A stretch of DNA of 64,000 nt, taken from positions 1 through 64,000 of the forward strand of contig JAUMVB010000002.1 in the NCBI GenBank assembly GCA_030530385.1, given 5' to 3'. Under the pieces are notes generated by a model. It ran no database searches and was not told the origin of the DNA. It saw only the letters and a list, made by a program, of their open reading frames with translations. The DNA is from a bacterium. Lineage in GTDB: Bacteria; Patescibacteriota; Saccharimonadia; Saccharimonadales; Saccharimonadaceae. Shown in pieces: positions 16,754 to 64,000 of this stretch. The number at the start of each line of letters is the position of its first letter. The first letter of the stretch is position 1. Both the position numbers and the translations under genes were made by a program.

Positions 16754-19603
16754 TTATAAATCTCCAATATAATCTTTAGGATTTTTTCTTCCAGCTTTCC
16801 AATCTGACCAAATTGGTTGACCTTCTGTTATTTCTAGGTGAACATGAGAAACTGTTCCTTTTGCATATCCCTCATCTCCAACGGTTCCAATCTGTTGTCC
16901 TTTTTTAACCTTATCTCCAACTTTTACGCTTCCTGATTGGTTATGACAATATACAGAATAGATATTATTCGCATGCTTAATTTCTATTTGTGCCGGCCCA
17001 CATCCGACTGAAGGTGCTGCCATTGTGACTTCCCCGTCAGCTATGGCGTGTAGAGGTGTGCCTATATTAGCCCAGATATCAAGACCTGTGTGCCAGCCTT
17101 GATGGAGGGGGACAGAGCTTGGACCATATTCAGTCTGTCCGGTAACTTTTGATTTTTCAACAGGCCAGACAAAATCACCTTTTCCACTTAATGCTGAATT
17201 AGTACTTCCCGATGAACTACCGCCTCCACTATTGTTACTTGGATTTAGATCATCATCCATTCCATCTTGAGCTCTTACACTTGTCATGAATGATGAATAA
17301 TAAGCCGTTTTTATATCATCTTTTTGAACACATCCTAATCCCATTTCGTCTAATGTTTCGCCAACACCAAGAGAACTGCCTCTTTCGTAGCAATGTTTTT
17401 TATACTTATCAAGACCTGATCCTGAGATTATTGCATCTAGAGGATTATTTTCTCCCTTATTTGAATCTAAGCTACCCTCAGCGACTAGGAAATCTATTAC
17501 TTCATCCATGCTTTTTGTATTGGTTTGAGTTGATACTCCGGTATAAGGATTACAGAATGGATCTGTTGCAACGCCTATATCTATCATATCTGCATCCTGG
17601 CAAATTTCCATGTTGGCTTTAAATCCAGCAGCATCAGCGGCGCTAGCACTTGGTAAAATGGAAGATAAAGAGCGGCTTGCGATTGAAGCTATTGATGGTA
17701 TAAATCCACCAATTGTTGCCAATTGTTGATTATAAGGAATTGCGCTACTGATTATTGAGCCAAAAAAGGTGTGTCGTGATGAAATATCAAATGGACTTAG
17801 TGTAGCTCTTTCATCTTCTGCTATTCGTGCAATACGAGTTTCATTCTGTTGATAAAATGCTAGTGCTTGAGTTTTATCTAATGCCCCACTTCCGCCAGTT
17901 ATTGTATTTTTGCTCATGAGAGACCCAGATCCTGACATGACGGCGTTTCCGTAGTCTTCTCCCGTGATTCCTTTTTTAACAACTATTCCTGCTATTAGTT
18001 CTGGTAGATCTTTTAATACTGTACTGACCACTTCACTAACAACTAAACCAAGCGCAAAATCAGCCACGGCAGCTAATAAACCACCTGTAAAAAAAGTAAT
18101 TGCAAAATCTACTGCATCATTTTGGAGGATTTTACATCCGATACTAAATCCAGAATTTCGAGCTCCTCGTCTAAATTGTGCGAAAGTTTTTGCTATCCAC
18201 CCCAATGCTCCATTAGAGTATTTACTTGCAGATTTATCAAGGTTACCAATACTATCATTATAAGCTAAAGCGCGATAACCTTGAGAGTCTGTAGCTGCGG
18301 TGATTTTTGCTTTACCTAAACCTGCTAATTGATTTCCTATAGAAGTGACTTCGTTTGGTGATGCATGGCCAGCTTTAATTTTAGAGGCCATACTTAAAAA
18401 TTTCATCGCAAAAGTTGCTAACTTAACTGCTCGAACGGTCTTAACTCCACTATAGAAGAAATTTCCGATAGAATACGCTAAGCATGGTAATTGAGCTACG
18501 CCAGTTTTACCTAATAAGTCTTTAATTTTTGAATTTTTAGCTTTGATACCGACATCTGTATCTACGTCTGCCTCGTTGGCTATTTTTTTGCTTTCTTCGA
18601 AAAATTCTTCGCCCTTCTTTTTGGTTTCTTCTGATTTATTTTTAATATCTTCATCCTCACTGTCTGATGATTGACTTTTAGACGAGGGAGTTTCTCCAGT
18701 TGAGTTAGTTTCTTTTACAGTATCCTCAGAAATCTTTTCAGGTGGTTTATTGTTTTCTTCCCCGCTAACACCTCTAACTTTGAAAATTGATCTAAATTTT
18801 TTAGCTACACTATCACGGAAACTGGCAAATTTACCTTGGTAGGCCTTGTTTAGGTTTGAGCGAAGGTTAACATCATTTTTCATCATGAATGTAAGATTGT
18901 CAGAGTCTATTTTTACTCCATTTTTTATATCTGGGTGAGATAAGCTTGTGATGCGTTTTTTTCCGGTAATGGTTGGGTTATCTACATCAACTTCAACTTT
19001 AAACCCAGCTTTCTCGAGTTTTGCTAATTGCTTATCTGAGATAGCTTCAAATTTACACATTACTTTGATAGCACCACACTTAACTGACTTTTTAATTTTT
19101 GAATTAAAAATTGCGTCGGTACTGTATTCTAGGCTTGAAGCTGTAGAATTTATTTTTTCAGTGACAATTTGCATTACATGAATTGGCATAACTCCTGTAA
19201 CTAGCATTGAGAAAGCACCTATTAATGCTGAAGCACCACCACCAACAATAGCCGCTGCTATAGCTGCTTTTTTAGTGCGAAACTTACCTTTTATACCAGA
19301 GGAATTTGATTGTTTATTTCTAGTTGCCCAACTTCCGCCTTTGTCGTCTTTTCGGCCGGTGACATTATTTACGAATGGTTGATTTTCTTTGGAGAGAATT
19401 TCATTTTCGGACGATTTATTTGATGAGGTTGCGGAATTTTCTGCTGAATCTAAAAGCTGGGGATTATAATCCTTGGATTTGATGGCCTCATTATTGCTAA
19501 ATCCTCCATAATCACCGCGAATAGATTCGTTGATTCCGAAATCATCATTACTTACGATTGAGCGATTGCCGTCTTCATCGCGCTGTCCGTCAAAAACTCC
19601 CAT
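16754..19603 (-). CDS. Large secretion-locus membrane protein with C-terminal M23 metallopeptidase
   Basis: The 949-residue protein has a polar N-terminus of about 110 residues and a membrane helix (AAIAAAIVGGGASALIGAF). A long middle part holds an acidic, Ser/Lys-rich stretch (about 285-345) and a second hydrophobic region (FFTGGLLAAVADFALGLVV). The last ~135 residues are an M23/LytM peptidase with HTGLDIW and HVHLEI zinc motifs, a family that cuts peptide cross-links in peptidoglycan. It abuts the lysozyme/SGNH gene without spacing and follows virB4 by 42 bases. It probably combines a VirB8/VirB6-like envelope scaffold with wall opening; the scaffold role is inference. Confidence 0.72.
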   Translation of the reverse strand: MGVFDGQRDEDGNRSIVSNDDFGINESIRGDYGGFSNNEAIKSKDYNPQLLDSAENSATSSNKSSENEILSKENQPFVNNVTGRKDDKGGSWATRNKQSNSSGIKGKFRTKKAAIAAAIVGGGASALIGAFSMLVTGVMPIHVMQIVTEKINSTASSLEYSTDAIFNSKIKKSVKCGAIKVMCKFEAISDKQLAKLEKAGFKVEVDVDNPTITGKKRITSLSHPDIKNGVKIDSDNLTFMMKNDVNLRSNLNKAYQGKFASFRDSVAKKFRSIFKVRGVSGEENNKPPEKISEDTVKETNSTGETPSSKSQSSDSEDEDIKNKSEETKKKGEEFFEESKKIANEADVDTDVGIKAKNSKIKDLLGKTGVAQLPCLAYSIGNFFYSGVKTVRAVKLATFAMKFLSMASKIKAGHASPNEVTSIGNQLAGLGKAKITAATDSQGYRALAYNDSIGNLDKSASKYSNGALGWIAKTFAQFRRGARNSGFSIGCKILQNDAVDFAITFFTGGLLAAVADFALGLVVSEVVSTVLKDLPELIAGIVVKKGITGEDYGNAVMSGSGSLMSKNTITGGSGALDKTQALAFYQQNETRIARIAEDERATLSPFDISSRHTFFGSIISSAIPYNQQLATIGGFIPSIASIASRSLSSILPSASAADAAGFKANMEICQDADMIDIGVATDPFCNPYTGVSTQTNTKSMDEVIDFLVAEGSLDSNKGENNPLDAIISGSGLDKYKKHCYERGSSLGVGETLDEMGLGCVQKDDIKTAYYSSFMTSVRAQDGMDDDLNPSNNSGGGSSSGSTNSALSGKGDFVWPVEKSKVTGQTEYGPSSVPLHQGWHTGLDIWANIGTPLHAIADGEVTMAAPSVGCGPAQIEIKHANNIYSVYCHNQSGSVKVGDKVKKGQQIGTVGDEGYAKGTVSHVHLEITEGQPIWSDWKAGRKNPKDYIGDL

Positions 19604-19645
19604 AATTATACCTCTATTTTATCACAAGCTTAAATTAAAACAAAA

Positions 19646-21508
19646 TTAGAATAAATCTCCGGCATCGGCATATCCATTATTCATCCCATTGTCGTTTCGT
19701 CTCTGTTCTTTTTGGTTGGGATTTGTTGTTATGAGCTGATGCTCAGTGTCGCTAGCAATCACCTGAATATGAACGTGATTTGAACCTGCAAAAAATAAAC
19801 CTTGGCCTACTGGGAAGTTAGCTAGTCGCTTTCTCTCTTCCTCAGTTAGCTTAAAGACGTCACTTAACACATCAACTGCACTAGACGATTGTTTTAATAG
19901 AAGCTGCATAGAACTGTTGGAAACAATCGCGCGTCCCATTTTTGAGCCCATAAAATCTTCAACATCCTGAGAAATTGTAGTAAGTCCAAGATAGTATTTT
20001 CGGGCACGTTTTGCTAAACTAAACAAGAAGTTAGCTGAATCATCGTATTGCATTAACTGCCAAGCCTCATCAACAATCAACATTCGTTTTCGCTGATCTG
20101 TACGCACAATATTCCAGACGTGAGAAAGGACAATATACATAGCTACTGGCCGAAGATCATCCTCGAGATCACGAATATTAAATACGACCATTGGGTTATT
20201 TATATCAATGTTTGATTGTTGTGAGAAAATACCAGCGAAAGTTCCTGTAGTGTATTTTCGTAGGCGTTGTGCTAATTGTGGACCCGTTCCTCCCATATGG
20301 ACTAAAGTGTCGTATAGATTAGCGATAGTTGGTGGTGTGGAATTGTGGGTTAATGGGTCGGACGTAATTCCGGCACGTGCATAAGTATCGATTAGAGCTT
20401 GATCTAAATCTGCCTCCTCTGCTGGAGATAATCCTATTTGTTGTCCTCTTGAGGCGCCACCAAGCATCAAACGGAATAACCCATGCAGGGTAATAATGTT
20501 AGCACGAAGAGCATTATCAGCTTCGTCGCTATCGATTACGCGCGGTAAATCGAATGGATTAATCCGTGTATCGCTATTTAAACTCAAACGAATATAACTA
20601 CCACCAACCGCGTCGCTAAGTTTTTGATATTCGTTTTCAGGGTCAATAATTATAACATCTGATCCCATCATCATCGTACGGAGCGCTTCGAGCTTAACTG
20701 TAAAAGATTTACCCGCACCAGATTTAGCAAAAACCACCATGTTAGCGTTCTCGAGTGTGAAGCGGTCGAAAATTACCAAACCATTGTTATGCATATTTAC
20801 GCCATAAAGAACACCGTTTTCTTGAGTTAGGTCGGCCGAAGTAAATGGAAATGAAGTAGAAATTGCGCCAGTATTCATATTGCGACGAATCTGTAGTTGG
20901 TCGTTCATTTGCGGTACGGATGCATTTAGTCCTTGTTCTTGCTGGGAGGAGGCTACTTTTGAATAGATCAATTGCTGACCGAGCATTGTTTCAATTTTAT
21001 TCCGTACAAAATTCAACTCATCCATAGAATCGGCGTAAAGTGTAATATAAAAACCAAATCGGAAAAATTTTTCAGCACCAACTTGTAGTTGATCGCGCAA
21101 TTCTTCGGCGTCTTGGTAAGCCGCTTCAAGTGATGGATCACGTGTTTTACCTTTTTCTGTATTTATATTCATTGAGGCTTCAAGCTGGGTAACTTTTCGG
21201 CGAAGATTTTTCATAACAACTTCAGTTTCTACTGGATAAATAAACATCGATAAATCTAAAACTTCATCGGCGTTAATTAATCCTGAAAGCCAACCAGTAT
21301 AAAGCTGGCGCGGATAGCCATAGATATAGAGAGTTTGACCATATTTAGTACCTAGCCGAAAATAACTTGAATGTAATTCAAGGCTTGATGGTGCTATCAA
21401 ATCGCGAAGTGTATTAATTCCGGTTAGAAATGCTTGTTCAACTTCGGCTTGTTCTTGTGCACGTTGTTGAGCAGCTATATCAATAGCGGTTTGTTTTTTG
21501 CGCCCCAT
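19646..21508 (-). CDS. virB4: VirB4-type conjugation/secretion ATPase
   Basis: VirB4 ATPases power assembly and transport by type IV secretion systems at the inner membrane. The 620-residue protein has an N-terminal non-catalytic domain, then Walker A FAKSGAGKSFTVKLEA near residue 265. It also has the DPENEY motif, Walker B RKRMLIVDEAWQLMQ near residue 480, the following TISQDVEDF motif and the NSSMQLLLKQS segment. These residues look intact. Its ATG overlaps the stop of the TraC-like gene (TAATG), indicating coupled translation. Confidence 0.93.
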   Translation of the reverse strand: MGRKKQTAIDIAAQQRAQEQAEVEQAFLTGINTLRDLIAPSSLELHSSYFRLGTKYGQTLYIYGYPRQLYTGWLSGLINADEVLDLSMFIYPVETEVVMKNLRRKVTQLEASMNINTEKGKTRDPSLEAAYQDAEELRDQLQVGAEKFFRFGFYITLYADSMDELNFVRNKIETMLGQQLIYSKVASSQQEQGLNASVPQMNDQLQIRRNMNTGAISTSFPFTSADLTQENGVLYGVNMHNNGLVIFDRFTLENANMVVFAKSGAGKSFTVKLEALRTMMMGSDVIIIDPENEYQKLSDAVGGSYIRLSLNSDTRINPFDLPRVIDSDEADNALRANIITLHGLFRLMLGGASRGQQIGLSPAEEADLDQALIDTYARAGITSDPLTHNSTPPTIANLYDTLVHMGGTGPQLAQRLRKYTTGTFAGIFSQQSNIDINNPMVVFNIRDLEDDLRPVAMYIVLSHVWNIVRTDQRKRMLIVDEAWQLMQYDDSANFLFSLAKRARKYYLGLTTISQDVEDFMGSKMGRAIVSNSSMQLLLKQSSSAVDVLSDVFKLTEEERKRLANFPVGQGLFFAGSNHVHIQVIASDTEHQLITTNPNQKEQRRNDNGMNNGYADAGDLF

Positions 21509-29353: not shown

Positions 29354-30007
29354 ATGAAGAAAAATTTATTCTCTAGCGTTTTGGATTTATTCGCCCCTAA
29401 CCACTGTTATATTTGTAATAAAATTGGTAATTTAGTTTGCAATGAATGCCTTGAAAAACATAATTTTCAAATTCAAATAATTAAACGGCAATCTAAGCGT
29501 CGCCCTTCTCGCGAGTTTTTTCTGGGAGATCGGGAAGGTGTTTTAGCAAAGATTTTAGATGATGCTAAGTTTAATGGCTGGCGAGAAAATTTTGAGATTT
29601 TAGCGCTTATTTTGTCTCGATCGTTAAAGAAAAATAACCTTTTCTATGGTTCGAAAGATGATATTATAATTGTGCCGGCACCAACTTCTTCTCGGCATGC
29701 TCGTCAGCGTGGCGTGGCGCATAGTGAGTTCATGGCGGAGGTTCTATCTAATGAACTTAGTGTTGAAACGGCAGATATTATTGCTAGGACATCACATTTC
29801 GTTCAAAAAGGCGCCTCGGCTAAAGTTCGCAAAAAGCAGGCTCTGGAAGGATATCAACTTGTGGGAGAAATTAATCGGGATAAAATCTATGTAATTCTTG
29901 ATGATATTAAAACAACTGGTGCGACTATAGATTCAATTTCTGATATTTTACTTCAGGCTGGAGCTCATGAAGTCTGGGCGGTTTATTTGATGCGCCAAAA
30001 AATATAG
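29354..30007 (+). CDS. comF: ComF family phosphoribosyltransferase-like protein
   Basis: A four-cysteine zinc motif (CYIC and CNEC) at the N-terminus is followed by a type I phosphoribosyltransferase fold with the PRPP-binding signature VILDDIKTTGAT near residue 185 and the segment QKGASAKVRKKQ. The 217-residue length is typical of ComF/GntX proteins, which are linked to uptake of external DNA. In a reduced organism with pilus-type ATPases this supports natural uptake of nucleic acids, but no other competence gene is seen here. Confidence 0.88.
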   Translation: MKKNLFSSVLDLFAPNHCYICNKIGNLVCNECLEKHNFQIQIIKRQSKRRPSREFFLGDREGVLAKILDDAKFNGWRENFEILALILSRSLKKNNLFYGSKDDIIIVPAPTSSRHARQRGVAHSEFMAEVLSNELSVETADIIARTSHFVQKGASAKVRKKQALEGYQLVGEINRDKIYVILDDIKTTGATIDSISDILLQAGAHEVWAVYLMRQKI

Positions 30008-62483: not shown

Positions 62484-64000
62484 ATGAATAATGGCGCAAT
62501 GGAAGAGATAAAAGCTCGCATAAATATCGAAGATTTAGCGAGCGAATATTTGGAACTGCGCCGAGCTGGGCGAAATTTTAAAGCGCTCAGCCCCTGGACA
62601 AATGAGAGAACACCTAGTTTTATTGTTAGTCCTGAAAAACAGATCTGGCATGACTTCTCGAGTGGTAAAGGCGGCGATATTTTTGGATTTATTATGGAGG
62701 TTGAAGGCCTGACTTTTCGTGAAGCGTTGGAGTTTTTAGCACGCAAAGCTGGTATCGAGCTTCAGCAATTTGATAATATACGCGCCAAGCAAATTGCACA
62801 AAAGAAAAAACGACTTTACGAAGTGTTGCGAGTTAGTGCAAATTTTTACCAACATTTTTTAGTTCGCGATAAAACGGCTTTAGAATACGTTTTTCAAAAA
62901 CGCAGACTTAGTAAAGAGATTGTTCAAGAATTTAAAATTGGTTACGCGCCAAAAGGTCAACGGACGCTAGTAGATTTTTTACAAAAAAAAGGGTTTACAC
63001 TGGACGAAATTCGTGATGTCGGTATGACTAATCGATTTGGTGGTGATATTTTTCGCGATCGAATGGTGATTGCACTTCAGGATATCAGTGGTGCACCGGT
63101 TGGTTTTACTGGCAGATTGTTGGCCGAATCTGATAACGCGCCAAAATATCTTAACACACCGCAGACTTTGCTTTATGATAAGTCAAATAATGTTTTTGGT
63201 TTATCGCAAGCTAAGAATGAGATTCGTAAAGCTGGTTTTGCTGTGGTGGTCGAAGGAAATATGGATGTAATTTCTAGCCATCAGGCGGGTGTTAAAAATG
63301 TTGTGGCTACGGCAGGTACCGCGATCACTACGCGCCATTTAAAAACGATTGCTCGGTTTAGTAATGATATCCGCCTCTGTTTTGATGCCGATGCGGCCGG
63401 TATCAATGCTACCGAGAGGGCAATTAGATTGGCGCAAGAAGTTGGTGTTGAACTTTCAATTATTGCACTTAATCAAGCTAGTAACGATGCGAAAGATCCA
63501 GACGAATTAATCCAAGTTGATTCAAATCTTTGGCGTGAATCTATTTCTCGGCCGAAGCCGGCAGTCGAGTGGGTTTTTGATCAGTATGAAAAGCGACTGG
63601 ATATTTCTACGGCTAGTGGTAAGCGGCAGTTTTCTAATATTGCGCTTAAGCTAGTTAAAAATTTAAGTGATCCAGTCGAGAAAGAATTTTATCTTGATGA
63701 AATTGCCCGTCGAATTAAAACTTCACGCGAATCTTTACTGGCAAAGTTTTCATCAGACAAACAGCCTGTTAAACTTAAGCATATAAAAGCCGAAAAAACA
63801 GAAGTGGTAAAAGACGATTTTGTTTATGAAGATGACCTGTTGGCGCTAATTTTGGCTGAAGAGAAATTTGCAGCCAAAATTGTTAACTTGCCGAAAAACC
63901 CACTTCACGGCGAAAACCGAAATCAAATTTTCGAAATTATTCGCAATAATGATCGCGAGAAGTTGAAAAAATTTGAGAATTATGTTAAAATCCTTCTATT
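62484..64000 (+). CDS. dnaG: DNA primase DnaG lacking the zinc ligands, 3' end outside the window
   Basis: DnaG makes RNA primers at the replication fork. About 505 residues are visible. The N-terminal domain keeps the primase fold (EERTPSF-type segment NERTPSFIVSPEKQIWHDF; SSGKGGDIFGFIM). However, the four zinc-binding residues of the CHC2 ribbon are replaced: CPFH reads SPWT, and the second pair, normally in HCFGCG, reads HDFSSG. The TOPRIM core is intact (VVVEGNMDVISSHQAG, GTAITTRHL, LCFDADAAGI). It probably binds template in a zinc-free way. The frame runs off the window edge. Confidence 0.93.
   Translation, partial: MNNGAMEEIKARINIEDLASEYLELRRAGRNFKALSPWTNERTPSFIVSPEKQIWHDFSSGKGGDIFGFIMEVEGLTFREALEFLARKAGIELQQFDNIRAKQIAQKKKRLYEVLRVSANFYQHFLVRDKTALEYVFQKRRLSKEIVQEFKIGYAPKGQRTLVDFLQKKGFTLDEIRDVGMTNRFGGDIFRDRMVIALQDISGAPVGFTGRLLAESDNAPKYLNTPQTLLYDKSNNVFGLSQAKNEIRKAGFAVVVEGNMDVISSHQAGVKNVVATAGTAITTRHLKTIARFSNDIRLCFDADAAGINATERAIRLAQEVGVELSIIALNQASNDAKDPDELIQVDSNLWRESISRPKPAVEWVFDQYEKRLDISTASGKRQFSNIALKLVKNLSDPVEKEFYLDEIARRIKTSRESLLAKFSSDKQPVKLKHIKAEKTEVVKDDFVYEDDLLALILAEEKFAAKIVNLPKNPLHGENRNQIFEIIRNNDREKLKKFENYVKILL

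Follow-up and report, generated by a model that had tools for sequence, protein, structure and literature searches.

Loss of all four zinc ligands from the DnaG primase of Saccharimonadales and the probable retention of a zinc-free primase domain

Bacterial primases are held to recognise their template through the zinc motif of DnaG. For the primase of T7, the zinc-binding domain has been reported to be necessary for template-dependent synthesis, and template-independent dinucleotides are made when it is missing; the precise role of the zinc in primase has been described as unresolved (PMC6163395). The dnaG gene at the end of the 64,000-nucleotide stretch of DNA analysed here (the window), which stems from a member of the Saccharimonadaceae, raises the question of whether such a domain can be kept in a working primase once all of its zinc ligands are gone.

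The zinc site of the primase encoded in the window

The original prediction that this DnaG lacks all four zinc ligands is borne out by alignment. The former zinc positions read S36-P-W-T39 and H-D57-F-S-S60, and a gap-free alignment with the DnaG proteins of B. stearothermophilus (1D0Q; CPFH and HCFGC) and A. aeolicus (2AU3) places the replaced residues exactly at the zinc ligand sites (Table 1). The four-ligand pattern of the CHC2 domain (Cys-x2-His ... Cys-x2-Cys) is accordingly absent. The signatures ERTPSF and GGDIF flank the altered site, just as had been predicted, and the TOPRIM metal residues, likewise said to be retained, are invariant in the 69 null rows compared (E257, D301, D303, D338 and D340). 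Homology of the N-terminal domain is not in doubt, since its match to the PF01807 profile reaches 93.8 bits at a cut-off of 24.9. The order of domains is that of a DnaG-type protein, with PF01807 followed by the PF08275 (DNAG_N)/TOPRIM catalytic domain, and the C-terminal part of the full-length protein of 577 amino acids (L001) is predicted to be helical, in keeping with the helicase-binding helices expected for this type. The protein thus shares domain order, predicted fold, TOPRIM residues and the ERTPSF and GGD motifs with the CHC2-type enzymes 1D0Q and 2AU3 but differs from them in that Ser, Thr, Asp and Ser stand in for the four ligands, such that zinc would not be expected to bind. His56 next to Asp57 was considered as an alternative ligand and rejected: some null rows have Lys or Tyr there, and it is therefore not a conserved ligand.

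A second intact primase, which would speak against the reading of a retained domain, was looked for with both profiles. The 628 kb, 92%-complete genome yielded one match to PF01807, namely the DnaG of the window, and one match to PF08275; no second primase domain of either kind was found in it. Judged from these matches, the protein appears to be the only recognisable DnaG-type primase of the cell, and priming activity is predicted for it.

Table 1. Positions of the dnaG gene, its former zinc ligand sites and further genes for proteins with altered zinc sites in the same genome (G000)
Feature	Sequence	Position	Strand	Remarks
dnaG primase gene	window	62484..64000	+	ATG start codon at 62484; reading frame leaves the window at 64000 and continues; 577 codons on the contig
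N-terminal CHC2-homologous domain without zinc ligands, residues 1-92	window	62484..62760	+	from PF01807, 1D0Q alignment and predicted fold
Ser36 (AGC) in place of zinc ligand Cys 1	window	62589..62591	+	invariant in 146 null rows
Thr39 (ACA) in place of zinc ligand His	window	62598..62600	+	T, S, G, N, K or R across null rows
Asp57 (GAC) in place of zinc ligand Cys 3	window	62652..62654	+	invariant in 146 null rows
Ser60 (AGT) in place of zinc ligand Cys 4	window	62661..62663	+	Ser, Ala or Thr across null rows
Catalytic (RNA polymerase/TOPRIM) region, residues about 100-430	window	62781..63773	+	acidic residues intact
rpoC without zinc ribbon cysteines	L255, G000 contig C1	19488-20657	-	
S14	L245, G000 contig C9	10254-10412		
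LigA, NAD-dependent DNA ligase	L301, G000 contig C1	113567-113794		

Distribution, recurrence and constraint

The survey for null sites covered Patescibacteria together with viral relatives from IMG/VR. Some loci in the DnaG alignment duplicate genomes and the tallies are thus of rows, not species: 75 rows have the complete CHCC set, 146 are fully null, 7 are partial with three of the four ligands lost and 10 are unreadable. All five genomes of the window's genus have the null site, and so do all 80 named loci taken from the collection of public genomes, most of them labelled Saccharibacteria or Saccharimonadia. Close relatives with intact cysteines, which would have implied a faulty sequence, were therefore not what we encountered, and sequencing error is ruled out as the cause of a change that is clade-wide.

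Within the order Saccharimonadales, all families with sequence read null (f1-f8, f153-f160), and so do f11, f12 and f161 of the same class. Other families of this class have kept the zinc site in the form CPFH...HCFGC (f9, f10, f162, f164, f165, f166), and in f163 and f167 the three cysteines are gone and the histidine remains (SPFH...HDFS[A/T]). Two loci from the latter families, L192 and L194, look like intermediates, with SPFH...HDFS at the site, and suggest that the ligand histidine was the last to go on this route. In the rest of the phylum, most families read retain zinc. Beyond the class, f49 and one f20 genome show full loss. A second route was taken in f36, f133 and another f20 genome, where the site reads S-[T/S/K]-C-T, three ligands being lost and the third Cys retained. 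One genus of f36 even comprises both a partial and a zinc-keeping genome. The loss had been framed as one of Saccharibacteria, nearly the whole of which share it, but it is not restricted to them, as other families of Patescibacteria are null and some families of the class keep zinc.

Viral primases were considered as a source and rejected, as almost every IMG/VR relative in which the site is readable has CHCC. Two IMG/VR contigs (L322, L323) have S-V-C-S at the zinc positions and are partly null in the manner of f36 and f133. Six near-complete Patescibacteria genomes (G098, G032, G079, G198, G272, G305) gave no match to PF01807 or PF08275, which could be due to assembly or frame problems or to true absence of DnaG.

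Seven changes are needed to place the three states of the zinc site on a tree calculated from residues 101-430, which cover only the catalytic region. One origin for all losses is ruled out, since a single clade of all losers was rejected with a set of 39 representatives (AU test, p=3e-5). With the same representatives, joining the losers of the class with f49 (p=1.5e-5) or with the null row of f20 (p=2e-47) was rejected as well. A single loss within the class received p=0.375 in a 70-row set and p=0.013 in the 39-row set. Beyond the class, the null lineages have arrived at this S...D...S/A pattern as well. By all appearances, the zinc ligands have been lost more than once independently and the same replacement residues have been reached; less probably, the domain alone may have been passed between lineages by an old transfer.

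The residues that took over are under tight constraint. Ser36, Pro37, Trp55 and Asp57 are found at 100% among the 146 null rows, position 59 is Ser in 96% of these rows and Gly in zinc rows, and Ala stands at position 60 in 13% of the null rows. According to the genetic code, Cys is one base change away from Ser and two from Asp. Asp57 is nevertheless present in every fully null row, which points to selection for Asp. When rows are compared at matched identity of the catalytic domain, conservation of the null domain equals or exceeds that of the zinc domain in nearly all bins (0.67 v 0.63 in the 45-50% bin, 0.81 v 0.72 in the 60-65% bin); this pattern does not read as a signature of decay. It bears also on neutral drift, by which ligands would have been lost by chance in small populations with relaxed selection and reduced genomes and the loss compensated later. 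Small genomes, several independent losses among Patescibacteria and partial forms that have lost three ligands would all suit such a course. However, the same Ser and Asp in independent lineages, combined with the strong constraint, point to a selected solution, and we regard drift as rather unlikely, even though compensation following an initial neutral loss would look alike.

Structural zinc in other proteins

The loss in DnaG had been proposed to bear on metal economy, and a sample of other zinc proteins was audited. In the window's genome, the N-terminal Cys4 ribbon of RpoC, WECYCGKYK...VCDKCG, is replaced by the cysteine-free INPYDNKLK...AVDKNG. None of the 11 Saccharimonadales genomes read (f1, f3, f4, f6, f7, f8) has the ribbon any longer, and it is kept in the class-mates read, even in those with null or partial DnaG (f11, f12, f163, f167), and also in f10, f20, f36 and f49. 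S14 is long and cysteine-free, or has one Cys left (G153), in the six Saccharimonadales read; it is short and has CxxC...CxxC in the class-mates G053 and G298 and in G050. LigA is devoid of its Cys4 site in nine out of ten genomes of the class, two of which have a zinc-keeping DnaG; the site is kept in G153 (L302). TopA is uninformative, because Cys4 fingers were found in none of the genomes read. The losses in DnaG and RpoC do not coincide, with f11, f12 and f49 having lost the DnaG ligands only, and the non-coinciding patterns of DnaG, RpoC, S14 and LigA indicate that the losses were stepwise and in part independent.

As far as the sequences tell, the losses found concern the structural zinc of information processing. 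The idea of metal economy gains support from the changes in RpoC, S14 and LigA, but zinc has not been abandoned: ComF, encoded in the window (29354-30007), retains a Cys4 zinc ribbon, and the catalytic zinc ligands of CysRS are retained in the same genome. The evidence for zinc economy as the driver is correlational. Possibly, and we put this forward tentatively, the Saccharimonadales have stripped structural zinc from the core machinery of replication, transcription and translation (DnaG, RpoC, S14 and LigA), kept catalytic zinc and, throughout the lineage, acquired a permanently low-zinc apparatus for information processing with ribbons re-engineered to be metal-free. The simplest cause would be selection on small, host-dependent cells to get by with little zinc.

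General avoidance of cysteine, because of oxidation or cysteine supply, would make the zinc sites collateral casualties. The cysteine content, 0.49% against 0.57% in class-mates that keep zinc, is indeed slightly reduced, and f163 and f167 keep the ligand His once the cysteines are gone. Yet the difference is small, the Cys4 site of ComF and the zinc cysteines of CysRS are still there, and His, too, has been lost in nearly all null rows. We consequently rejected this explanation as the main cause and consider it improbable.

A GTPase encoded on contig C1 (L261:18950-19999, plus strand), which we take by eye to be of the COG0523/CobW type, carries a GCICC motif and a His-rich tract. The COG0523/CobW family is often linked to zinc delivery. 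The protein may be a zinc chaperone in a genome that is poor in zinc ribbons.

Predicted fold and possible function of the null domain

An AlphaFold2 model built from null sequences only has a pLDDT of 93 overall, with the blocks of the ribbon mostly at about 90 and above. Foldseek matches of the DnaG model are to DnaG N-terminal and catalytic domains; compared with 1d0q_A, the null-only model gave a TM score of 0.88 and 1.7 A over 98 columns, and a zinc-type control from the same class gave 0.85 and 0.9 A over 90 columns. The antiparallel beta-ribbon fold of 1D0Q is thus recovered in the prediction. AlphaFold2 tends to give the family fold with or without the metal, and the model shows that the null sequence is compatible with the CHC2 fold but does not thereby prove metal-free stability.

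Conservation, predicted fold and recurrent convergence together support the prediction that the domain has been kept in a zinc-free form, the sequence being what speaks for the absence of zinc. We consider it likely that it is a functional primase domain pinned by Ser/Asp/Ser, within a wider reduction of structural zinc. The N-terminal domain would keep the fold of the DnaG zinc domain and, most likely, its template-handling job. Their conservation leads us to infer that Ser36, Asp57 and Ser59/60 form a hydrogen-bonded pin joining the two loops that are normally clamped by zinc. An aromatic core (F/W38, W55, F58) would bear the remaining load, and the beta-ribbon, staying folded, could still present single-stranded DNA to the catalytic domain.

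Instead of forming a pin, Ser36, Asp57 and Ser60, possibly with Thr39, might bind Mg, Mn, Ca or another hard metal. The former ligand positions do carry three or four side chains with oxygen and Asp57 is invariant, but position 39 is free to vary (T, S, G, N, K, R) and the Ala noted above is tolerated at position 60. Ser36 and Asp57 are then the only side chains conserved enough to act as ligands, fewer than a usual site has, and a metal swap is very improbable. More doubtful still is decay of the kind known from animal mitochondrial Twinkle, a T7 gp4-like protein in which the primase-family zinc domain has likewise lost most cysteines, zinc ligands and primase activity disappeared together and POLRMT took over priming (PMC7231222): in the null DnaG, by contrast, there is no loss of constraint, the domain being highly conserved with invariant new residues. 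The catalytic domain, which on the decay reading would prime alone or give way to another enzyme, has its TOPRIM residues in place, and the two profiles found no other primase of the DnaG type in the genome.

The reading of a Ser/Asp/Ser-pinned, zinc-free domain has parallels among other zinc proteins. RpmE2, RpmJ2 and DksA2 are zinc-free paralogs of zinc-ribbon proteins that serve to save zinc (PMC8531726) and, like the null DnaG, retain the protein without its cysteines. They are spare paralogs induced by zinc starvation, whereas the null DnaG is the only copy and its ligands are permanently absent. Zinc-free versions, already known for other zinc proteins, would thus be met here in a single-copy replication enzyme. 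Our search of the mainly freely accessible literature found no report of a zinc-free DnaG in these bacteria. Taken at the level of sequence, the observations suggest that a part of primase long thought to depend on zinc can work without it. The sole DnaG-type primase seems to be metal-free throughout an order and, by independent change, in other lineages as well, each time with the Ser/Asp/Ser solution, and the role of the zinc may well become testable by comparing members of one class that naturally have or lack it. Considered alongside the changes in RpoC, S14 and LigA, these findings make it conceivable that these host-dependent bacteria have been shaped by their zinc supply.

Apart from dnaG, the window features type IV secretion-like genes on the minus strand (16754-21508). 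A VirB4-like ATPase of the CD1110 conjugal-transfer family (19646-21508) is encoded next to a protein with a match to M23-type peptidases (16754-19603).
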